Shown here piece by piece: positions 5,039 to 33,778 of a stretch of 64,000 nucleotides of DNA. A program made the translations under genes and the position numbers. Position 1 is the first letter of the stretch, and every line of letters begins with the position of its first letter. Below the pieces are notes generated by a model. That model saw nothing but the letters and a program-made list of their open reading frames with translations. It had not been told where the DNA came from and did not search any database. Source of the DNA: Edaphochlamys debaryana (Eukaryota; Chlorophyta; Chlorophyceae; Chlamydomonadales); assembly GCA_016858145.1 (NCBI GenBank), contig JAEHOE010000099.1, positions 62,001-126,000 of the forward strand, read 5' to 3'.

Positions 5039-6220
5039 AGCTAGGTCTCCCGGTCAGGCGTCCGCACAATGCAGGTATGAGGTATACCCTCAATAGCGGG
5101 ATACCCACAGCACGCAATCGGACACCCGCAAGCAGCACCGACCCGCGCGACCCGCGATCGCAGCGCCTGTGATGTGCGCGCAGGTGATGGCGAACGAGAG
5201 GTGCCCTGTGCGCGGGCGGTATCCTCGACAGAGTTTGCTCTCCGAAGTGCGTCATGGCAGTGCAGCTGCCGTTCTGCCATTAAACAGATGCCAGTTTTTG
5301 CAAGCTAGCGTCAAAGGCCATGATGAAGTGCGCAGTGCGGCCAGAGCAGCAGTAACACCGGTAGGGAGTAAGGCGGTGTGCTACTGAGTGAGCAAAAAGC
5401 GAGCAAAGCCGAGTGGCTGCGTTGATCTAGAAGTCTACAGTAAATGTAGGTTGATGTTGGCAGGTAGGAGGGGGCGAGTGCGGTTCGCAGGTACTGTGCG
5501 CAACAAACGCAGCCGTCGCGATGCAAGCGTTGACTCCCCGTCCACGCGGTCAACCCCCGCCCACCCAGCCCGGCGGGAATGGTGTTGAGAAACACCGTTG
5601 AGTTGCTTCAAGATACGTCGCGCGGTCGCCGGACCGAAGCGCGCCCAGGGCCGCGCATGCCAGATGCAATGCTTGCACGGCTGCGACTTTCGTGCAGAGG
5701 CAGCACGCAGGACCGGGTAATGCACGCGCGTAGCAACTCAATCGCGGCAGTCTCGACAGGTCCTGGCATCGTGCGTGCGGGAACCGTCGCGACAAACGGA
5801 ACACCAGTAGCGCATAGTGGCCGGCTTTGTACGCAACGACCAATGTCGTGGCTGTACAGCAGAGCTCGCGTCCATCCTGCTATTGCGGGGATAGCTGCGG
5901 GGATAGCTGCGCGTTGGTGTGGGTGCCCGGCATGGCGGGATGGGCGGTGCGGGCCCGGGCTGTTGGCCTGCGCTTGCGCGGACTGAGGTTCTACATCTAT
6001 TGCGGGTATGGGCTGTGCGCGGGCACGGGGGCGGTTGGCGGGCTGCCGCAGGCGCGGTCTGCCCCCAATACGGGTATCGCCGCAGGCGCTGCGATCGCGG
6101 GTCGCGGGTCGCGCGGGTCGGTGCTGCTTGCGGGTGTCCGATTGCGTACTGTGGGTATCCCGCTATTGAGGGTATACCTCATACCTGCATTGTGCGGACG
6201 CCTGACCGGGAGACCTAGCT
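5039..6220. mobile_element. Inverted-repeat element, MITE-like, 1.18 kb
   Basis: The ends are long inverted repeats. Positions 5039-5169 match the reverse complement of 6083-6220, starting agctaggtctcccggtcagg on both outer edges. The right arm carries a 7-bp internal duplication (gtcgcgg) and there are isolated mismatches. The interior of about 910 bp holds no recognisable protein, so this is probably a non-autonomous DNA transposon. A TA target duplication is possible, because the outer bases read agcTA and TAgct, but the palindromic edge (agcta/tagct) prevents a firm boundary. A foldback structure of another origin cannot be excluded. Confidence 0.75.
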
Positions 6221-6424
6221 GGTGTACGCATGGCGATCGCGTTGCAAAGCGTAGCTTGGCGTGCAGCGCGACGCACACAAACGTGCTCCAAGCCGGTCGC
6301 GTGTCGCGTTAAGGGTACGCGACCCGACGCTTCGCGTTGAGCCCCAACGCAAGGCAGCGCGCCCTACGCGTCCCAACGCGGCCGCAACGCGGTCCCCCGT
6401 CGCCATAGTGCTCCCCGCCCGCAG

Positions 6425-7598
6425 GTGTTTGAGGACCTGGCCGAGTTCGGGTCCGGGATGCCGGGCGGCGGCGCGCGGTCCAGCCCCGGGGAGGAGCCCA
6501 AGAGCTGGGAGGCCTGGCACACCGAGTTCCTGGCCCCCTTGCGGGACGACCGGGGCAGCCAGGTGTTTGGCTACCGCGTGGGCAGCATCGTGTGCCTGCT
6601 GCTGCCGCACTGCGTGATGTGCGTGCTGGGCTGTGCGGTGGCCGCCACGGCCGCCACGTTCGACACGTCCCTCGTGCCCGACCCCGCCTGGGTGGTTGGC
6701 GGCAGCCTGGCCACGTGGGTAGCGCTGCTTGCGTGGGCGCGGGCCAAGCGTATGTATACGGGCTCGGGACTGAACACGGACTGGCGCTGGTTCAAGGCTG
6801 TCGTCCAGGTGCGTGCGCGGGCGGGCGGGCGGCATGGCTGGCACCGGGGTTGCGACGCGGGCCGGGCTCTCACCACAAGCTTTGCAGACGGGTCTACAGC
6901 CCAGACGCGTATTGATCCAGCTCCCGACCTGAGCTCGTGCCCCAATGTCGCATTGGCCCCACCTTTCGTCCCTCCCCCACCCACACCCACGCCAGGTCGC
7001 CAGCGTCTGCGCCGTCGTCTACGTGCTCGTGGCCACCCTCATCCTGCCCCAGCGCGGCATCCGCTTCGCGGGCGTGCTCATCACGCTGTGGGCCAACTAC
7101 CAGGCCGCGGCCTTCGCGGCGCAGGCAGCCACCCTGCTCTTCCCCAAGAACCCTCTGATCAGGCAAGCAAGGGCGGAGCGGGCCTGCTGGGCCTTTTGAT
7201 GCGGCGTGCTGCGTGCGGCGTGCTGGGCTCGACGCGACATGGCCCTCGTGCTCGCAGGCAGGCCGACCTCCTGTAGGCTGTTGCGCAAGGCGGCACCCAC
7301 CACCCGTCCGCGCACCACACGCCTCACCTGAAGCCCACAGTTTCCCGCCCCGCCCCCTCGATCCCCCGTTCGCCCCAGGTCCCTGGTGGACGGCGCGTAC
7401 CGCCAGGCGGACGTGCTCGTGGGCCTGGTGCTGGCGGTGGTGCTGGTGGTGCTGACGTTCATCGGCCAGATCGGGCTCATCATGCTGGACAAGGTGCAGG
7501 CCACGGTGCAGTTCAACGGCGTCTACGCCACCAGCGGGCCCCTGGTGGTTCCGCCGCTGGGCCGGGAGCTGCTGCAGGAGCCCGCAGAGGACGACTGA
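6425..7598 (+). CDS. Glucan/callose synthase (FKS1/GSL) C-terminal fragment, copy 1
   Basis: Three exons join in frame to 256 residues: 6425-6808, 6996-7162 and 7379-7598. The start of the first exon matches the conserved segment of plant and algal 1,3-beta-glucan synthases before the last membrane helices, with EPKSWEAWHTEFLAPLRDD resembling their EKSWEAWWEEE..LR motif. At least four hydrophobic helices follow (near residues 50-75, 82-100, 130-165 and 200-225), and the protein ends EPAEDD. The second intron begins with GC (ag|gcaagc) and its phase 2 fits the next exon. The full enzyme is near 2000 residues with its catalytic part upstream. None of that is found between 1 and 6424, so this is an orphan 3' fragment. 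The family is clear; activity is very unlikely. Confidence 0.7.
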
Positions 7599-23049: not shown

Positions 23050-25040
23050 GCGGGGGAGCGGGCGCGTGGAGGCGGCGGCGGGGGGGCGTGGAGGCGGCGG
23101 CGGTAGGGCAGGGGGGCAGGGAGGACCGGCGAGGAGGGGTAAGACTGGGATGGGCCTTTGCCTGACGGCCCTTAAGGGCGTGTAGAGTGCTAGGGCCGTG
23201 ACGGCATGTGGGGGGCGGTTGTGGCACTCGTGAGGACGGTGGCGGTCGTGCGTGGCGGGGGTGTTGCATAGGTGTGGACGTTTGGCCAGCACATCAACGT
23301 TTGGGCAGGGCTTCGGGGCAGCGGGGCGACTACCTGCAAGGCGACCGCTTGCATCGATGCTGCCTTGAGGCACGAGACGTGCGTGAGGTTACCGTAGCAT
23401 GTGTAGCACCAGTCTCGTCCAACAGCGTGAAATGTCGCTTAGAGCAGCAACATGTCGTCCTATCAACGAATTGTAGTCTGTGTGCATCTACACTTCCGGT
23501 ATTGCGTCTAGCTTGTGAACGTACTGCAGTCTGTCTGTGTGTCACCCTGTGTATGCCTGTGTGGTACGGCAGCACTTGCGTAGCAGCACTCAGCACACTG
23601 ATCAACGCTTCGACGATGGCGGTGGACGTCCCTACTTTGGACAACGCGTGCCGTACGTCTCTGCAACAGCCGCCTGTTCCGTATGTCTGGCGAGAGGCCT
23701 CATCAGGGCAGCCTGGACAGCGGGCTGGTCGCCCTTGGATGTGCAGGGCTGTCCAGCGCTGTTCGACTGGTACATAGGCAGGCGCATGCAAGTTCCACGT
23801 AGAGTTCCACGGCGGTCAGGGGTCTGTCACGAACTAGCGTGTCCAGACGCCCCCCTGATGTCCGTACCGAACAGTCGAGGGGTGGGGGCTCGGAGCAGCG
23901 CCCGCTCCTCCGATGCCGCCCAAACGGGAGTGCCGGCCAAAGCGCCTCGCTGCACTGGCTACGTCCTATGCGTGGGCGCGGGGCCCACGCTGGCTCGGGA
24001 AGAGGCTTCCAGGCGAGGAGCCATCGACGCTAGGCAGCGTGCATCGGCAATGATCAGCGTTACACAGGTCTGCCATGACATGGTCTTAGCTACATTGGTC
24101 TGTTCTATGACTGGCGCATCAGCAAGTCGTGCCGAAGAGCAAGAACAGACAGCTTGCTCAGCGGCCACGAGCACTCTTGACCGTCGGCAACTGCCGTACA
24201 GGTCCCAAAGATCCACACACAGGATTCCCATTGCGTACACGTTCCGCCCAAGTGGTGCCACTAGAGGCAAGAAGACCACATCAAAGAGCTAGCGGAAGTG
24301 TCAGCGAACACGGATTGCAACACGTTCACAAGGCCAAATCGGACCGTTGATTCGGTTGGCACACGGCCTGGACACGCGGTGTTCGAGGACGTACTTGGGC
24401 CTGACAGCTGTCACGAACTAGCGTGTCCAGACGCCCCCCTGATGTCCGTACCGAACAGTCCCCCCCCCAGCTCGTCGACAACGGAGATAGAGCTGGAAAA
24501 TCGAAGTGATGAGGGTAGGACATGGACTGAGGATGATGCTACGGAATACCGCGCACACACACAAGGTATGGCTCCCAACACAATGCCATGCAGAAGTCTA
24601 CAACCGCCTGGGACCGGCCTCTGTCACCCCCTGGCCCCCATGACACCAGCACGAACGGCGACAACTGCAGCATAGCACGGGACCAACACCTCTTTTAGGA
24701 CTGGGAAAGCCGCTTCATAGCGCACTACCACACCCAACCTCGAATCTCAAAGCTCATCGCTGCCGCTACTCGGTCAGCAAGTAGACAGTCGACATTGGAG
24801 ACAGGCATGCGCCCTTCCTGGCTACCATCAAACATAGTGGGGAGAGGTATAGCAGCCTGACTGCGTCACTCTGCACTCCCACAGGGCGGATGCGATGCCT
24901 TCAACTGCCTGGGCTGGCCCCCGCCACCCCCTGGCCTCGGGTGCAGGCGAACCACGCTCACAGCCAACGGCGACACTCGCAAGCCCCATGCACTCCCGTA
25001 GAGCTGCAACACTGGTACCAGCCCAGCCATCCTGATCACT
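23050..25040. other. Intergenic stretch with a 53-bp direct repeat
   Basis: No gene is supported; frames such as 23537-24292 lack protein-like composition. A 53-bp word at 23824-23876 (ctgtcacgaactagcgtgtc onward) recurs exactly at 24418-24470. The 541 bp between the copies shows nothing else recognisable. Confidence 0.6.
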
Positions 25041-25813: not shown

Positions 25814-26175
25814 GCACCCTCGTCGGCCTGCTGTGCAACCCCAGCTGCCTCCCCCGCGCTGCTGGCTGCCTGCTCGCCTGATAACGCCTGATCCCGAGCG
25901 TGTTTCACCATCTGCGGGGGGAAGGGGGAAGGGGTAGAAGGGGGGATCATTGCAGGGCAGCGAAACACACACGAGGTGGTTGTAACCGTTGTACGAGCAC
26001 GGTTATGACAGGTACAACTGTCAACCAAGCTTGGGTTGGTTAGCGTTTGTAGAGTTTGTTGCTGGTGCTGGCTGGGGGGCTGGAGGGGGTGCGGGGGCCA
26101 GGGGCAGGCGGGGAGCCAGACACGCACATGGCATGCACGGCATGCCACGCCCAGCACAATCTGAGCGCCATCTCA
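25814..26175. repeat. 362-bp solo copy of the transposon 5' end
   Basis: Positions 25814-26175 match 29305-29666 in direct orientation over 362 bp, with no difference seen. In the right copy this sequence is the start of the transposase gene (first 32 codons on the minus strand) and its 5' flank. In the left copy the gene body is missing. The shared right edge (gcgccatctca) is followed by unrelated DNA in each case, which marks the likely outer end of the element. Confidence 0.8.
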
Positions 26176-26948
26176 GAGGCCGAGCGGCCCCGTCACGGTT
26201 TCGCAGCAAAAGCTTCGCTAGATCGAAGCCCGTAAGCTCGCTGGCTACGTCTCAGTGACACCAACTCGCTTGTGCGTCTCCGGCAGCGCGGAGGGGCTTG
26301 TCGGAAGGCTCTGAGCCGGCGCCAGCTTAGCGCAATCGAGGATGGCGTTGCGCGGAGGGCTCTGGATAAAGCTGGCGACCTGGGTCCACGCTCTGTTATG
26401 ACTACAGGTGTGTGCAGATAAGCACATAGCATCGGTTAGAAGCGGCTTGACGCGGCGACCATCACCGCGACCGTTCGGCACGCGGGGCCCCGCCTCCCCC
26501 CGCGTCCCGCACTCCCCGACTCCCGCACAACGGAATCGCGCATCCGCTATCCAGGGGGATCAGCCCCCGACTTCGCCACCAGCAGCAATATCGTATAAGC
26601 AGTCGTGACACGCGTTTCCCCTGCTAACCCCCTCGTCACGGCTTCGGACATGTCCATCCCACGCGGGCCGACATGCCAGACAAGCCCCCCTTGCCTCACT
26701 CTGAGGCGGGGCCCCGCCTGGCTCCACCGCAATAATACAAACGTTATAAGCATGATAGGTAGTTAACCTGATGCGTGCTTGCTCAGCTGCCCCAGCGTCC
26801 TGTGCCCCCTGTACACCTTCCTGGCCCATGCTTTCCCTTGCTCGACTCTTCCCTCTCTCCCCTCGACTATCCCTCCCTCCCTCCCTCCCTGTCCCCTCCC
26901 GCGCGCCGCCTCTCGCCCGCAGGCCCGCCTCCAGCTCGCAGGCCCGCC
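26176..26948. other. Stretch between the solo transposon end and the transposase gene
   Basis: No gene is supported. The part nearest the transposase stop is probably the element's 3' flank. I looked for an inverted copy of the 5' outer end (tgagatggcgctcag) and did not find one, so the 3' boundary of the element is unknown. Confidence 0.4.
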
Positions 26949-29402
26949 TCAGCGCAGCTTCTTCTCTGGGTAGTTGCCCTCCGCCTTGATGATTGCCGGC
27001 AGCACCTCCAGAAAGAGCCGGTGGGTAGTGTTGCGAACCCAGTCATTCGTGATGACCTTGCCCGGGCCCTCGAAGAGCCGCCCCAGCTCCGTGATGTAGA
27101 TGCTCAGCTGGTCACCGGTTGCCGACCGGTGGTTGTTGATGAACTCCTGGAACGCCTTGACCAGGCGGGCGTGGCTCAGCTCGATGATGCTGTGCATGTC
27201 CGGGCTGTATTCGGGCAGCCCGGTGTGGTGTGACTCGTCGATGCCGTACTTGGCCCAGTCCCCCTCACGCCACTTGCCGTGGATGTAGGTGTTGTCCCAC
27301 GACAAGATAGGTGGCTGCGGCTCCCCTAGCTCCTTCCACTTTGCAAGCGCTGCTCTGAGCACCCGCGTCTCCCACTCCTTCTTGGTTGGCCCCGCAGCGT
27401 CCTCACCGGCGAGGGTCTGCGTGTGGGAAGCGGTGGACACAACAAGCGGGGCTTTGAGGAGGCATGGGTATACGAGGCCTTCGATACCCAGCGCAACGGC
27501 TGGGAGCTGCGTGGACGTGGGCGGCATGACCCTACAGGAGCCATCTGGACCAGTCCATGCCGGTGCCATGTTTGGAAGACCCCGCACGCTGTGTCAAAGC
27601 GGCTGACTGACCTCAACAAGCGTGGCGAGGCGCCCACCCCCTCTAGCGTGTTTCAGTGCCCCATGCACTGTCCCGGGAGCTCGAGGGAGGCCAGCGACTA
27701 TGAGCAGGAGGCGTTTGAGCTGCTGCGCACACTGGCAGGTGCACGGCCCGGGTGTGTGGTGGTCTGGGAGGCGCAGGTGGTCAAAGGCGTGCGGGCGTTC
27801 GATTTCTGGCTCTACGGCACGCGGGTGGTGGTGGAGGTGGATGGAGAGCATCACTTAGGGGAGGAGTGGAGCGGCAAAGTGAAAGTCGAGAAGCAGATGT
27901 GGCTGGACCGGCAGAAGGGGTGGCATGCAACACGTGCGAAGTTTCACGTGGTGCGGCTTTGCTGCCTCGCAACAAGGCAGGACTGGGCAGACGCTATCCG
28001 ATCAGCTCTGAGCTCTGAGCGCTCCGAGGTGGTACGTGGACATGGTTCCCGAGCACCCTGAGCACGTCTGACCTGGTAGGGGGGGTGCTTGTAGTCGGTG
28101 CCCTTGGTGCCCGTGACCCAGACCAGGAGGAAGGCGCCGTGCCAGTAGTTGATGACGCTGTAGTAGTGGATGCACCAGGGCTCCGTGCATCGCGAGTCGT
28201 GGATGACACGCGAGGGCTGGCCTTTGAGGCCCCACTTCTGGCAGGGCAGAGAGGCGAGGGGCGCACGGAGATATCGTGAGGACTCAGGCAGATGTGAGGG
28301 GCGGTGGCACACCGGTGCCCCAATGCTGAGTAATGCGCGGCTACGGCACCCAGCCCCTTGACGCCGCACCTTGTAGTTGACGGGCGTGATCCAGATCTTC
28401 TTGGCGTCGAGCCACAGGATGCGCGAGATCCAGTCCCAGGGCCCGCGCTTCAGGTCCTCCACGCTGGTGGGCAGCCGGAAGGCCTCGTCCGCTCGCAAAC
28501 CCATCACCTTGCGGAGCCACTTGATTGCGCACTCCACGCGCGCCTTCATCACCTCCGGTTTCAGCGGCTTCTTGAACTCCACCAGCAGCGCCTTGCTCAG
28601 CCTTGGCTCACACTCCATCATGGCGTCCCACAGCGCCCTCAGGCTCACGGGGTCGGCGGGATCCTGTGGGGAAGGCGGGGGGATGCGGGAAAGCTTCAGG
28701 CCAGACCCGCAACAGCTGAGGCTTGCTGCCCCCATGCCCCCTTCTGCTTCTCCACCCGCCCTGACCAGCCCCTCTTGCCTCGCTGCAGCTGTCCAGGAGA
28801 TCCTTGAACTCGGGGACCGCCAGCATCGCCTCCTTGCTGCTGGGCGCCTTGTCGAGCACCATTGCTAGTGCGAGCAGGGCTTTCGCCTCCGGCACCTTCC
28901 GTGGGGCCCCAGAGCGTGGCGCGTCCTGGACCCCAGATGCCCCTCTGTTGGGCTCCAGCCGCGCAGCCCAGCGCCGGCACAGCTCTTCCGGCTTCTTTGG
29001 TGGCTCCACGTCTGGGTTCACCGCCAGCCACTCCCCCAGCAGCCGTGCTGCTTCGGGACCCCACTCTGAGTTGGGATGGGTGGCCTCGGCCGTATGCGCG
29101 GCTTTAACAGCCGCCAGACGCAGGCGGTGCTTGACAGCTGTTCTGTCACGCTTGGCTGCCGCCTCGGCCCTCAGCTCGTCCTTGTCCCGCTTGGGGCCGC
29201 GGTGCCGCCTCTCTTTAGCAGCCGGCGCCGCGGCCCCCTCTCCAGGGGGCGTGTCCACCTCACCCCCAGACTCCACGGCCTCTGCCTCATCCCCCTCCGT
29301 GCCCGCACCCTCGTCGGCCTGCTGTGCAACCCCAGCTGCCTCCCCCGCGCTGCTGGCTGCCTGCTCGCCTGATAACGCCTGATCCCGAGCGTGTTTCACC
29401 AT
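26949..29402 (-). CDS. DDE transposase, IS630/Tc1-mariner-like (D-37-E)
   Basis: Four exons on the minus strand join in phase 0 to 516 residues: 29402-28779, 28663-28370, 28237-28073 and 27416-26949. Exon 1 holds an acidic/basic front, a helix-turn-helix-like region (LLGEWLAVNPDVEPPKKPEE) and the linker-like SGAPRKV. The catalytic triad is visible: first Asp in ILWLDAKKIWI, second Asp in ILSWDNTYIHG, and Glu in SPDMHSIIELSHA, 37 residues after the second Asp. Intron 1 starts with GC (gag|gcaaga); the others are GT-AG. No stop or frameshift breaks the joined frame, so the enzyme may be active: it would cut and join the element's ends in the nucleus. The start at 29402 is the first Met of the acidic domain; an upstream Met near 29441 is in frame. 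Intron 3 contains an antisense nuclease frame. Confidence 0.8.
27423..28061 (+). CDS. Vsr/DUF559-like (PD-(D/E)xK fold) endonuclease frame nested antisense in transposase intron 3
   Basis: The plus-strand frame runs to the stop at 28061 and lies wholly inside intron 3 (27417-28072) of the minus-strand transposase. The C-terminal half reads like a very-short-patch-repair/DUF559-type nuclease: VRAFDFWLYG, then VVVEVDGEHHL (the E-x-D-G-x-x-H signature), then a basic helix and KFHVVRL. Upstream, CRCHVWKTP and FQCPMHC could form a small zinc site. The first ATG in frame is near 27663, which still keeps the whole nuclease core. Position 27423 is a GTG, and the frame stays open upstream into the antisense of exon 4, so the N-terminus is uncertain. 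Such folds occur in mismatch nicking enzymes and in some homing endonucleases. Whether it is expressed is unknown. Confidence 0.65.
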   Translation: MGSGGHNKRGFEEAWVYEAFDTQRNGWELRGRGRHDPTGAIWTSPCRCHVWKTPHAVSKRLTDLNKRGEAPTPSSVFQCPMHCPGSSREASDYEQEAFELLRTLAGARPGCVVVWEAQVVKGVRAFDFWLYGTRVVVEVDGEHHLGEEWSGKVKVEKQMWLDRQKGWHATRAKFHVVRLCCLATRQDWADAIRSALSSERSEVVRGHGSRAP

Positions 29403-29666
29403 CTGCGGGGGGAAGGGGGAAGGGGTAGAAGGGGGGATCATTGCAGGGCAGCGAAACACACACGAGGTGGTTGTAACCGTTGTACGAGCACGGTTATGAC
29501 AGGTACAACTGTCAACCAAGCTTGGGTTGGTTAGCGTTTGTAGAGTTTGTTGCTGGTGCTGGCTGGGGGGCTGGAGGGGGTGCGGGGGCCAGGGGCAGGC
29601 GGGGAGCCAGACACGCACATGGCATGCACGGCATGCCACGCCCAGCACAATCTGAGCGCCATCTCA

Positions 29667-30474
29667 CTACCGCCTAAAAGTCTTCGGAAACTTGAGCACC
29701 CTCGCAGTCGCTGCGCGGGCCCCGTTTGTCTTCCAAGCATCAAAATTGCATCTTCCCTACAGCATGAGCCGCTCAAACCTTGCAGCCGTGGCCTCTAGCG
29801 CCCAGACAGGTTTGCCGTACGTTTGCTCGCACAGCCAGGGTCGGCACCTAGGGACTGCACAGCGTGTCGTTCGTACAAAAGGCGAGGCAATGCTCTACTG
29901 GCTTGGGCTGGTCGCTTGGGAAGGCGCGCTCATGGTGTGGCCGGCCTTGCCCAGTCCCGCGCTCTTGGGCGTACACAATTCCCTGGCAGCACAACCTCCT
30001 GTAAGCCCCACGTCCATCGCCCTTAAGCGAGTGGCCGCGGGGGGCGCTGCGGAGCCCGAGGGGGCGCATCCTGTGGTGAGGGTGTGTGCTGGTACCGTGC
30101 CCGCAGGGGGAAGGCAAGGGTTTTCCCCACCCCGCCTCCAGCCCCTGTCATGCTCCCCCCATATGCACAGGGACTCTGTAAGCTTGCTTGGTGCGCGGGG
30201 GGGACTGCGGGGGGTAAGCATTTCTTAGGGGCGGCATGGGCGCTGCGGCATGGGGTAGGCACGTCGGTGGACCCCGGCACGCATCAGAGCGCGCCGTCTC
30301 GCTGTCGGCCTAAGGCTTCCACTCCGCGCACTCGCTCACACAAGCTTACCTTCCTACTCAATAGAAGACGTGGTGTTCAGCCCTCAAGCTACAGCGCATT
30401 TTAAGCACGGCGCCGCGACAGACGGCTCGAGCCGCAAAGCCAAGTTTCCGACGACTTTTAGGAGGCAGTGGACG
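29667..30474. other. Intergenic stretch, no gene seen
   Basis: The plus-strand frame at 29692-30228 is open but has no recognisable motif, and a similarly weak frame lies on the minus strand. I see no supported gene. Confidence 0.4.
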
Positions 30475-31432: not shown

Positions 31433-32822
31433 AGGCGGCCTCGAACACGCTCTTGCCCTCGTACTGCACACCAACCGCATCATTGTCGCACGAGAAGGGA
31501 AGGGCCGGGGTCAGGTGCAGCAAGGTCGCCGGTGCGCCAGGTGCCTGTGTACTGTTCGCTGATCGGGGCCTGACCGGGTGCACAGCAGTGACCCACCTTC
31601 ATGATGTCCTGGCCGAAGGAGTCGGTCTGCGGCAGGAACAACCAGCCGGCTGGCACGGCTGCATCCCGAACGTACAGCCCGGCGCCCGGGCCATGCCAGC
31701 CGTTGTTGCGACTGACGTCAGACAGCCTTGGTTTCACCGAGCGCTTGATGCACCTGCAAAGCTCACGCACGATGAGGGAGAGGTCGGGACTGTGACGGGA
31801 CTCGATGGGTGGACTCTGACCCACTCGATGGCCGGCAAGGTCCTCAAACATCTAGCACAAGCACCCCTGCCGTGCCAACTGTGAAATATCACAATGCCGC
31901 ATGGATTATACTATGGCGTGCGAGCGCATGCCGCAGGCTCACCCGATGGAGTTGAAGGCTGCCGCGCCCAGACGCTCCGCCCTCCTGGCGATGGCCCGCA
32001 CCGCCTCCAAGTCGGCACTTGGGGGCGGCCAGGTGGGGCCGCAGCCCTCAAAGTCGTTGCCGTACGAGTCACAGTTCGCGTAAAGCCGGAAGCCGCCCTG
32101 GCAGGGCATGAGAAACAGGCGGAGGCGTGAGGCAGAATGCACGAACGAAATGCGGAGCAGGCTGCTTATGACAGATGCTCAACGGCTGGCTGCGATGCAC
32201 ATTGCAGGGAAACCCTTGCGGCTTGTTGCCCGGGCTGCATGGCAGCTGAACGCCGTGGCTTGGCACCCCAGCCTCCAAGAGGAGGTAGGTGCGTGCTTCC
32301 CGTTCTTGCCCGCCCGCCTACCTGAGCGCTGGAGCTGTGGCACTTGCCTGCCGGCTGTGGGCCAGCGAGTGCCGTTTCGAACCCAGGCTGGGCCTCCGAC
32401 GACGGCAGCACGTTTGCCGCAAACTGTCCGTCGTAGTTCCCCGGGGGGTAGTAGCGGAACACGTACACGGGGCGTCCGGAGGGCGTGATGGCCTCGCCGA
32501 TGCCCAGCCGTTGGGTGCCGCGCCACACAACCTGTGTAAAGTGGCCAGTCGCCTTGGCAAAACGAGGGCGGCTAAAGTCGTAGTACTCAACCTCGTTGTA
32601 GAAGCCGTCCACCGCGTCCGCGGCCGACGCGTGACCCATCGCCAGGTTTTCACCCTGATCCGTCGCGTCCGCGTGGACTAGGCGGCCGCCACGCCTTGCA
32701 AGGTAGTCGGCCCATCGCTGCGCATCGCGTGCGAGGACGTTGTCCCATCGGAGCGGACGCGCGCTGTGCAACTGGCGCAACTCGTTATGCCGTGCTAAAG
32801 CTTGAGCGTACTCTCTATTCAT
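31305..32822 (-). CDS. CAP-domain (SCP/PR-1-like) protein with a Cys-containing C-terminal extension
   Basis: Four minus-strand exons join in frame to 323 residues: 32822-32322, 32097-31943, 31753-31597 and 31463-31305 (phases 0, 2 and 0). The first exon is a CAP domain: ALARHNELRQLHSARPL, WADYLARR, GENLAMG, GHFTQVVWRGTQRLG and YYPPGNYDGQF carry the expected His and Glu of the CAP cavity. The later exons form a second region with paired Cys (YANCDSYGNDFEGCGP, then NCACMGG), ending GLFVRI. CAP proteins are usually secreted and bind lipids or act in defence. No signal peptide is seen at this Met, so an upstream exon may be missing, or the start at 32822 is only the start of the conserved part. 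The last exon is partly duplicated at 37742-37869. Confidence 0.75.
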
Positions 32823-33778
32823 GCTGCTACTTGGAAGAACGAAGACAGTGGCTCCCTGCTACGCCGGTTGCGACGATCGAGAGAGTGACATACCGCCCAA
32901 TTGACCGCTTCTGGCTTGTTCTGGCCTCTTGAAGCGTGTGAATTGTGCACATCTTCTGCATCTTCTGCACACCAAGAGCCTCTTGATATAACGCGTGCGG
33001 GGGGGGCATGGTGCGTGCCGTACGGATCGTTGCGGGCTGGTGCGGGCCCAGTTGGGCCAGCTGGCCCTTGAAAGCCCCGCCCCTGCTCCCAGGCCCTCCC
33101 AGGCCCGGCGCCTGCCCGAGACCATCTGTGCGAAGCCCAGGCCCCGCCCGGAACCGTCCGGAACTCAGGCTTCGGCCCTGCTCGGCCCCACTGGCCCGCC
33201 TGCGGGGCGTAGCTTCCTTGGGCCCCTGCCAAGAACGCATCCACCCTCCGCCTTGCCCTCCGCCGATCCAGATCCAGGCGACAACACTCGGTCGGAGAGT
33301 GTTCCCCGTCACGCAAGCCCCTGGCGCATTGGCGCTGTAGCGCTCCAGGAGCGTTAGCTGACCCCGTGAAACCGTCCGCAAGGCAGCCCATGGGCCCGTG
33401 TCCCATTATTCGTCCAGCTTGGCCCAGCTGCCCGAACCGAACTCGCAAGAGAACGAAAGGAAGATGCGGGGCGTCCTTACATGATGGACTGCTCTATCAG
33501 CCACGCACGCACCACAGACTTGACTAACCATGTACCGTCGCACCACCCTGCGTCTCGGCACGTCGGCGGTTGAACGCCAGATTGCCGACAAGCTCACCGG
33601 TCCTTCGCAGACTTGCCCTAGCGGGCGCCCGTGCGACGCTATCGCAAAGAATGTGCCTGCTCGTCCCCCTGCTGCACACGCTCAACGCAGCCCCAGCGGC
33701 AGGCTGACACGTGTCAGCGCTAACAAGACGGCGCCATTCCCTCTGCCCGCCCTTGCTCCAGTGCCCCCCACCCCGCAG
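32823..33778. other. Intergenic stretch, no gene seen
   Basis: Overlapping minus frames here are long but have no motif. A weak TATA-like word (gatataac near 32983) lies about 160 bp upstream of the CAP start on the opposite reading. No feature is firm. Confidence 0.4.

Follow-up and report, generated by a model that had tools for sequence, protein, structure and literature searches.

Composite-like transposons named KolobokP have been described in animals (Kojima and Bao, 2022; PMC9587614), and an induced-unequal-crossover model has been proposed for them. Here, we analysed a stretch of 64,000 nucleotides from the green alga Edaphochlamys debaryana (contig JAEHOE010000099.1 of assembly GCA_016858145.1, positions 62,001 to 126,000 of the forward strand), hereafter called the window, in which an intron of a minus-strand DDE transposase gene holds an open frame for a nuclease on the opposite strand. 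By its sequence, the element concerned is a composite-like, cut-and-paste DNA transposon of the form LTDR-INT-LTDR, in which an internal region (INT) encoding the transposase and the antisense nuclease is placed between long terminal direct repeats (LTDRs). The gene pair recurs in five transposase families of the same genome, which suggests that transposons have joined a transposase with a homing-type nuclease in a second, separate instance.

The transposase gene of the window (29402-26949, minus strand) was modelled, like the other genes, from homology and splice signals, which gave 516 codons in four exons. Exon 1 (28779-29402) begins at the first ATG and is followed by a proposed GC-AG intron 1, exon 2 (28370-28663) carries the first catalytic Asp (LWLDAKK), exon 3 (28073-28237) ends in KHPPYQ, and exon 4 (26949-27416, stop codon included) carries the second Asp (SWDN) and the Glu (IIEL) with DD37E spacing. 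A further upstream exon is possible, since an acceptor-like sequence (...cccccgcag) precedes the first ATG. The signature LWLDAKK ... SWDN ... YSPDMHSIIE places the catalytic triad at D294, D402 and E440, with 37 residues between the second Asp and the Glu, within the Tc1 range, and the three residues are invariant in all five families. Pfam searches gave no convincing match for the transposases (HTH_32 in three of five, best E 0.019), and the NCBIfam model IS630 (NF033545) matched four of five only weakly (best E 1.5e-5; for family A, a score of 21.2 bits where the cut-off is 100); the proteins are therefore termed IS630-like here, as originally proposed, and not called members of that family. 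Among the 7996 best candidates from a large protein database, one transposase relative was found (P0004), whose likeness stops at about the end of exon 3.

Intron 3 (27417-28072, minus strand) lies between the first and second catalytic Asp. Its borders agreed with the original prediction (donor gtcaga, acceptor cacacgcag): KHPPYQ meets gtcaga at 28073/28072 and cacacgcag meets TLAGED at 27417/27416, both in phase 0. A self-splicing group I or II intron was rejected on the grounds that no Rfam model matched the window at gathering score and that all five families have GT-AG borders at this intron position; the intron is apparently spliceosomal. The nuclease frame on its plus strand (27423-28061) comprises a Cys/His part (~27558-27668) and a Vsr/DUF559-like core (~27798-27959), and the predicted motifs EVDGEHH, FDFWLYG and FHVVRL are all present. 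The proposed start did not hold, as the frame is open from 27330 and has no in-frame ATG ahead of the conserved core, the only in-frame ATGs being at 27663 and 27897. Compared with the 694-bp intron of the sister copy C230, the 656-bp window intron lacks 38 bp, which shifts the C-terminus of the nuclease. In C230 the nuclease frame closes with a stop codon that overlaps the splice donor, so the 11-bp gap between frame and splice site that had been noted is a trait of the damaged window copy. Judging from the 38-bp deletion, this copy is probably a non-working nuclease gene, though its core is intact. The length of the frame is by itself no evidence, because the window has 66% G+C and 83 stop-to-stop frames of at least 200 codons.

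To this window-type family (A), four further transposase families (B, C, D and F) built from fetched loci of the same genome were added, and the five proteins proved 31-73% identical in local alignments. A phase-0 intron at the homologous site, directly after a TGT-G--Y motif, and the antisense nuclease inside it were found in five of five families, the count covering those with both flanking exons recovered; in families C and F it is the sole intron of the transposase model. Exon 4 gave at least 150 scored matches (of 202 candidates) in the genome and the nuclease at least 118, fragments being counted in both cases. In the five families, the genome search with both proteins suggested by the original prediction returned the same antisense layout. 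For the suggested comparison with intron-less homologues, the fetched loci offered no transposase in which the site is intact and the nuclease intron absent. A sixth transposase family, G, was observed as arrays or copies in C49, C63, C126, C331, C120 and C201; in the C49 copies read, the intron region was lost by a deletion that also took flanking coding sequence, the frame is broken and no nuclease is present. Normalised pairwise scores of the nucleases followed those of the transposases (r=0.975; 3 of 120 label permutations reach this value), and A-B and D-F were the highest-scoring pairs for both proteins, while simple percent identity ranks the nucleases of C-F (48%) above those of D-F (45%). 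The relationships of the two proteins appear to agree broadly.

Differences between the A and B nucleases number 51, 45 and 102 by codon position over 226 codons, third positions dominating (chi-square p=3.5e-7). The corresponding dN/dS was 0.216, with 0.357 for transposase exons 3+4 of the same pair (family B nuclease from the open C409 copy, transposase from C33); further nuclease comparisons, which are near saturation, gave 0.349 (A-C), 0.227 (B-C) and 0.448 (A against the relative at C118). These values indicate purifying selection at the protein level, and the predicted catalytic and metal-binding residues are invariant across the five families. The predicted fold is Vsr-like (pLDDT 65.5, pTM 0.69, from an alignment of four sequences) and its best structural matches were Vsr and I-Bth0305I, not TnsA, which bears out the likeness first proposed; the Cys/His part is probably metal-binding. 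Likeness to DUF559 (PF04480) held in kind, but the window frame (15.7 bits) and the family C nuclease (18.9 bits) stay below the gathering cut-off of 20.6 and the profile did not match the family D and F nucleases, whereas the relatives C118 (23.2 bits) and P0003 (22.5 bits) pass it. Relatives also occur among the predicted proteins of Chlamydomonas reinhardtii and C. incerta. The C118 relative is a stand-alone frame of the same nuclease type (365 codons, 5552-6646, plus strand, in C118:5000-14999); the 10 kb fetched around it contained no transposase, and the locus also holds tandem repeats of ~867-880 bp. A defence-system nuclease was rejected: PADLOC, run on three nucleases, gave one weak match to a type II restriction enzyme for C118 (E 0.02) and none for A and C. 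The presence in all five families, the agreeing relationships, the invariant residues and the purifying selection together indicate that the transposon stably carries the nuclease as its second gene. Of the two readings first offered, that of a two-gene transposon is thereby supported, and that of a nuclease moving the intron by itself is not, because the intron site does not vary among the families.

The analysis of the flanking DNA revealed features that the original prediction had missed: long terminal direct repeats with CACT...AGTG ends, an arrangement in tandem multimers, target duplications of 3 bp and the close parallel with KolobokP. In the window, one full INT unit (26177-29664, minus strand) adjoins, at the 5' end of the transposase unit, an LTDR of 806 bp (29665-30470) that has CACT...AGTG ends and 30-bp terminal inverted repeats (27/30 identical). 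At the other end, an INT-INT junction of 3 bp (26174-26176, CTG on the transposase strand), a probable footprint of LTDR excision, is followed by only the start of a second, truncated INT unit (25814-26173, minus strand), from which a 362-bp exact direct repeat (25814-26175 and 29305-29666) arises; the CTA/TA flanks of this repeat had been considered as a target duplication and were dropped once the LTDR and the true ends were found. The family A LTDR, with the inverted-repeat ends CACTACCGCC...GGAGGCAGTG, has at least 39 near-identical copies (39 scored of 104 candidates), and its end is the left-edge sequence that the window unit has in common with this family's arrays in C57, C230 and C244. 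Family B has an LTDR of 804/805 bp, 67% identical to the A version, and family C one of 756 bp with CACTT...GGAGTG ends and imperfect inverted repeats. Of the family C array edges, four were read: two coincide with LTDR ends (C185 left, C234 right) and a third falls within ~10 bp of one (C280 right). Solo LTDRs (C319, C9, C90), an LTDR-INT-LTDR monomer (C33) and an (LTDR-INT)2-LTDR dimer (C137) were all found, and many nuclease and exon 4 matches lie in tandem arrays with periods of ~2.5-4.8 kb.

Both outer flanks were read at these five loci, the three solo LTDRs, the monomer and the dimer, and all five showed perfect 3-bp target duplications (TGC, TGA, TAA, GAG and TAC); LTDR loci with at most one outer flank (C188, C31, C118, C306, C427, C1, C57, C59, C99, C300 and C400) lie outside this count. 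In the fetched family A and B loci, 13 INT-INT junctions without an LTDR read CAG (6), CTG (6) or CTAG (1) between constant INT ends, and the same ends directly abut CACT and AGTG where an LTDR is present. The 13 junctions do not equal 13 events, as amplification links the copies of an array. They are probable footprints of LTDR excision, a process also argued for KolobokP. Tandem arrays of deletion derivatives were observed at C59:692000-709000, C177:168000-208000 and C230:25900-69500, with units of 1919 and 2722 bp; these periods differ by 803, one LTDR of 806 bp minus 3, which would fit the same kind of excision. The C59 stretch that was read has transposase exon 1 joined to the end of exon 4, and the nuclease is gone. 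Several arrays lie at contig ends, for example at both ends of C57, the end of C185 and the starts of C230 and C167, where they probably break the assembly; loci L001-L028 showed no telomere-type repeats. Elsewhere in the window, an exact direct repeat of 53 bp (23824-23876 and 24408-24460, 584 bp apart) and a minus-strand frame (32166-32858) that we take to resemble a CAP/PR-1 (SCP) domain protein were observed.

For this composite-like two-gene transposon, we consider it reasonably probable that the transposase moves LTDR-bounded DNA and that cuts made by the nuclease drive a repair that multiplies INT units. The spliced transposase would act on CACT...AGTG ends; acting on a single LTDR, it would give rise to solo LTDRs and INT-INT excision footprints, the whole composite would be the alternative substrate, and insertion would make the 3-bp target duplications. 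The other strand would give the nuclease, whose cuts in the DNA of the element would be repaired from a neighbouring unit or the sister chromatid; such repair would add or restore units and so yield long homogeneous arrays, a step that follows the model proposed for KolobokP. Because both products use the same DNA, sense splicing of the transposase and antisense transcription of the nuclease would probably limit each other. More tentatively, the arrangement might be an independent second invention in a green-algal IS630-like lineage, where sense or antisense expression would switch between transposition and array growth, one DNA stretch encoding both a mover and a multiplier.

Several points weigh against the composite two-gene reading. 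Deletion derivatives of the C59 type, which lack the nuclease, also form arrays, so the nuclease would act in trans or not be needed; the arrays could have grown by plain unequal crossing-over, and the INT-INT junctions could be old tandem joints. LTDR ends were looked for in families D and F and not found, the fourth family C edge read (C255 left) lies 101 bp inside INT, and truncated units stand at the end of the window array and at the right end of C230. With five families, the co-inheritance test is weak: r falls to 0.79 when the A-B pair is omitted, and A, C, D and F alone give 2 of 24 permutations. The nuclease frames raise points of their own, as the conserved core is preceded by an in-frame ATG only in families B and C (MQGSGGHN, MGTRRRRRGGHN) and by none in copies of A, D and F, for which a further exon or another start is therefore needed; moreover, the amplified B copies C33, C131, C137, C300 and C400 have a break in the nuclease frame, some such copies keeping open transposase exons.

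The last two observations would suit an antisense regulator, whose frame matters mainly as a transcript silencing or timing the transposase, the protein being secondary, and so would the antisense nesting in all five families; selection on the protein and the invariant active-site residues make this very improbable. A chance open frame in G+C-rich intron DNA was rejected as practically negligible, long spurious frames being common in the window but homologous frames in five families, a dN/dS of 0.22, a fold match and predicted relatives in other algae standing against it. That the nuclease is instead a TnsA-like helper, cutting the LTDR-end strands left by the DDE transposase, with a single excision machine and arrays due to ordinary unequal crossing-over, seems unlikely, given that its model best matches Vsr and I-Bth0305I rather than TnsA and that IS630/Tc1-type transposases cut both DNA strands unaided.

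We likewise doubt that the nuclease is a passenger homing gene, which once homed into the intron and persists by its own drive, through gene conversion of nuclease-less copies, at no benefit to transposition. Its predicted fold is close to I-Bth0305I, and the stand-alone C118 frame and the predicted proteins of the two Chlamydomonas species would fit such a gene; yet the identical site and similar relationships in five families argue for vertical co-inheritance, no fetched transposase with an intact site is free of the nuclease intron, and the loss in family G is a deletion including flanking coding sequence. If the composite two-gene reading is true, a DDE transposase, a homing-type nuclease and long terminal direct repeats have been assembled from unrelated parts on more than one occasion, which would argue that the nuclease does real work, probably by making arrays grow or by rescuing the composite form. 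An apparently spliceosomal intron held at one site in highly diverged transposon families, with a second gene on its other strand, would offer a direct test case for the upkeep of nested antisense genes. Together, the nuclease frames of five families and the LTDRs of three make the induced-unequal-crossover model testable in a laboratory alga or yeast.

Compared with known systems, the algal element shares with IS630/Tc1-mariner elements a DDE domain of the WDN...YSPD..IIE type, DD37E in family A; the NCBIfam match is weak and covers four of the five families. Target duplication of TA is typical of that group, unlike the TAA, GAG, TAC, TGC and TGA found here, and the CACT ends, long direct repeats and second gene also set the algal element apart. 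CACT-type termini and 3-bp target duplications characterise CACTA (EnSpm) transposons and are found in the algal element as well, but its transposase is IS630-like; the Pfam model of CACTA-type transposases matched none of the five, in a family so divergent that a missing match is no proof. In contrast to Vsr and I-Bth0305I, the algal nuclease has an extra N-terminal Cys/His part and is encoded antisense within a eukaryotic transposase intron that is apparently spliceosomal. Nucleases of the Fanzor/TnpB type are unrelated to it. Eukaryotic transposons carrying them (Bao and Jurka, 2013; PMC3627910) likewise have a nuclease gene added, and the listing text of that paper mentions no antisense layout in an intron. 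The titles and abstract beginnings returned by searches of an open-access library revealed no IS630/Tc1-like or algal element with such a layout, nor a nuclease antisense in a transposase intron, though one could be catalogued in Repbase, preprints or subscription papers. Among the published systems compared, KolobokP comes closest in architecture: both have the LTDR-INT-LTDR form with LTDRs bearing their own inverted repeats (806 bp in A, 804/805 bp in B, imperfect in the 756 bp of C), target duplications outside solo LTDRs and multimers, INT junctions that speak for LTDR excision, and a DDE transposase whose complementary strand also encodes a nuclease of homing type, a predicted one in the alga. 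The parts differ, as KolobokP has a Kolobok transposase, RR...YY ends and a His-Me finger nuclease downstream of the transposase, whereas the algal element has an IS630-like transposase, CACT...AGTG ends (CA...TG dinucleotides, which do not fit RR...YY) with 3-bp duplications, and a Vsr/DUF559-like nuclease with an ExD..H core nested in an intron.
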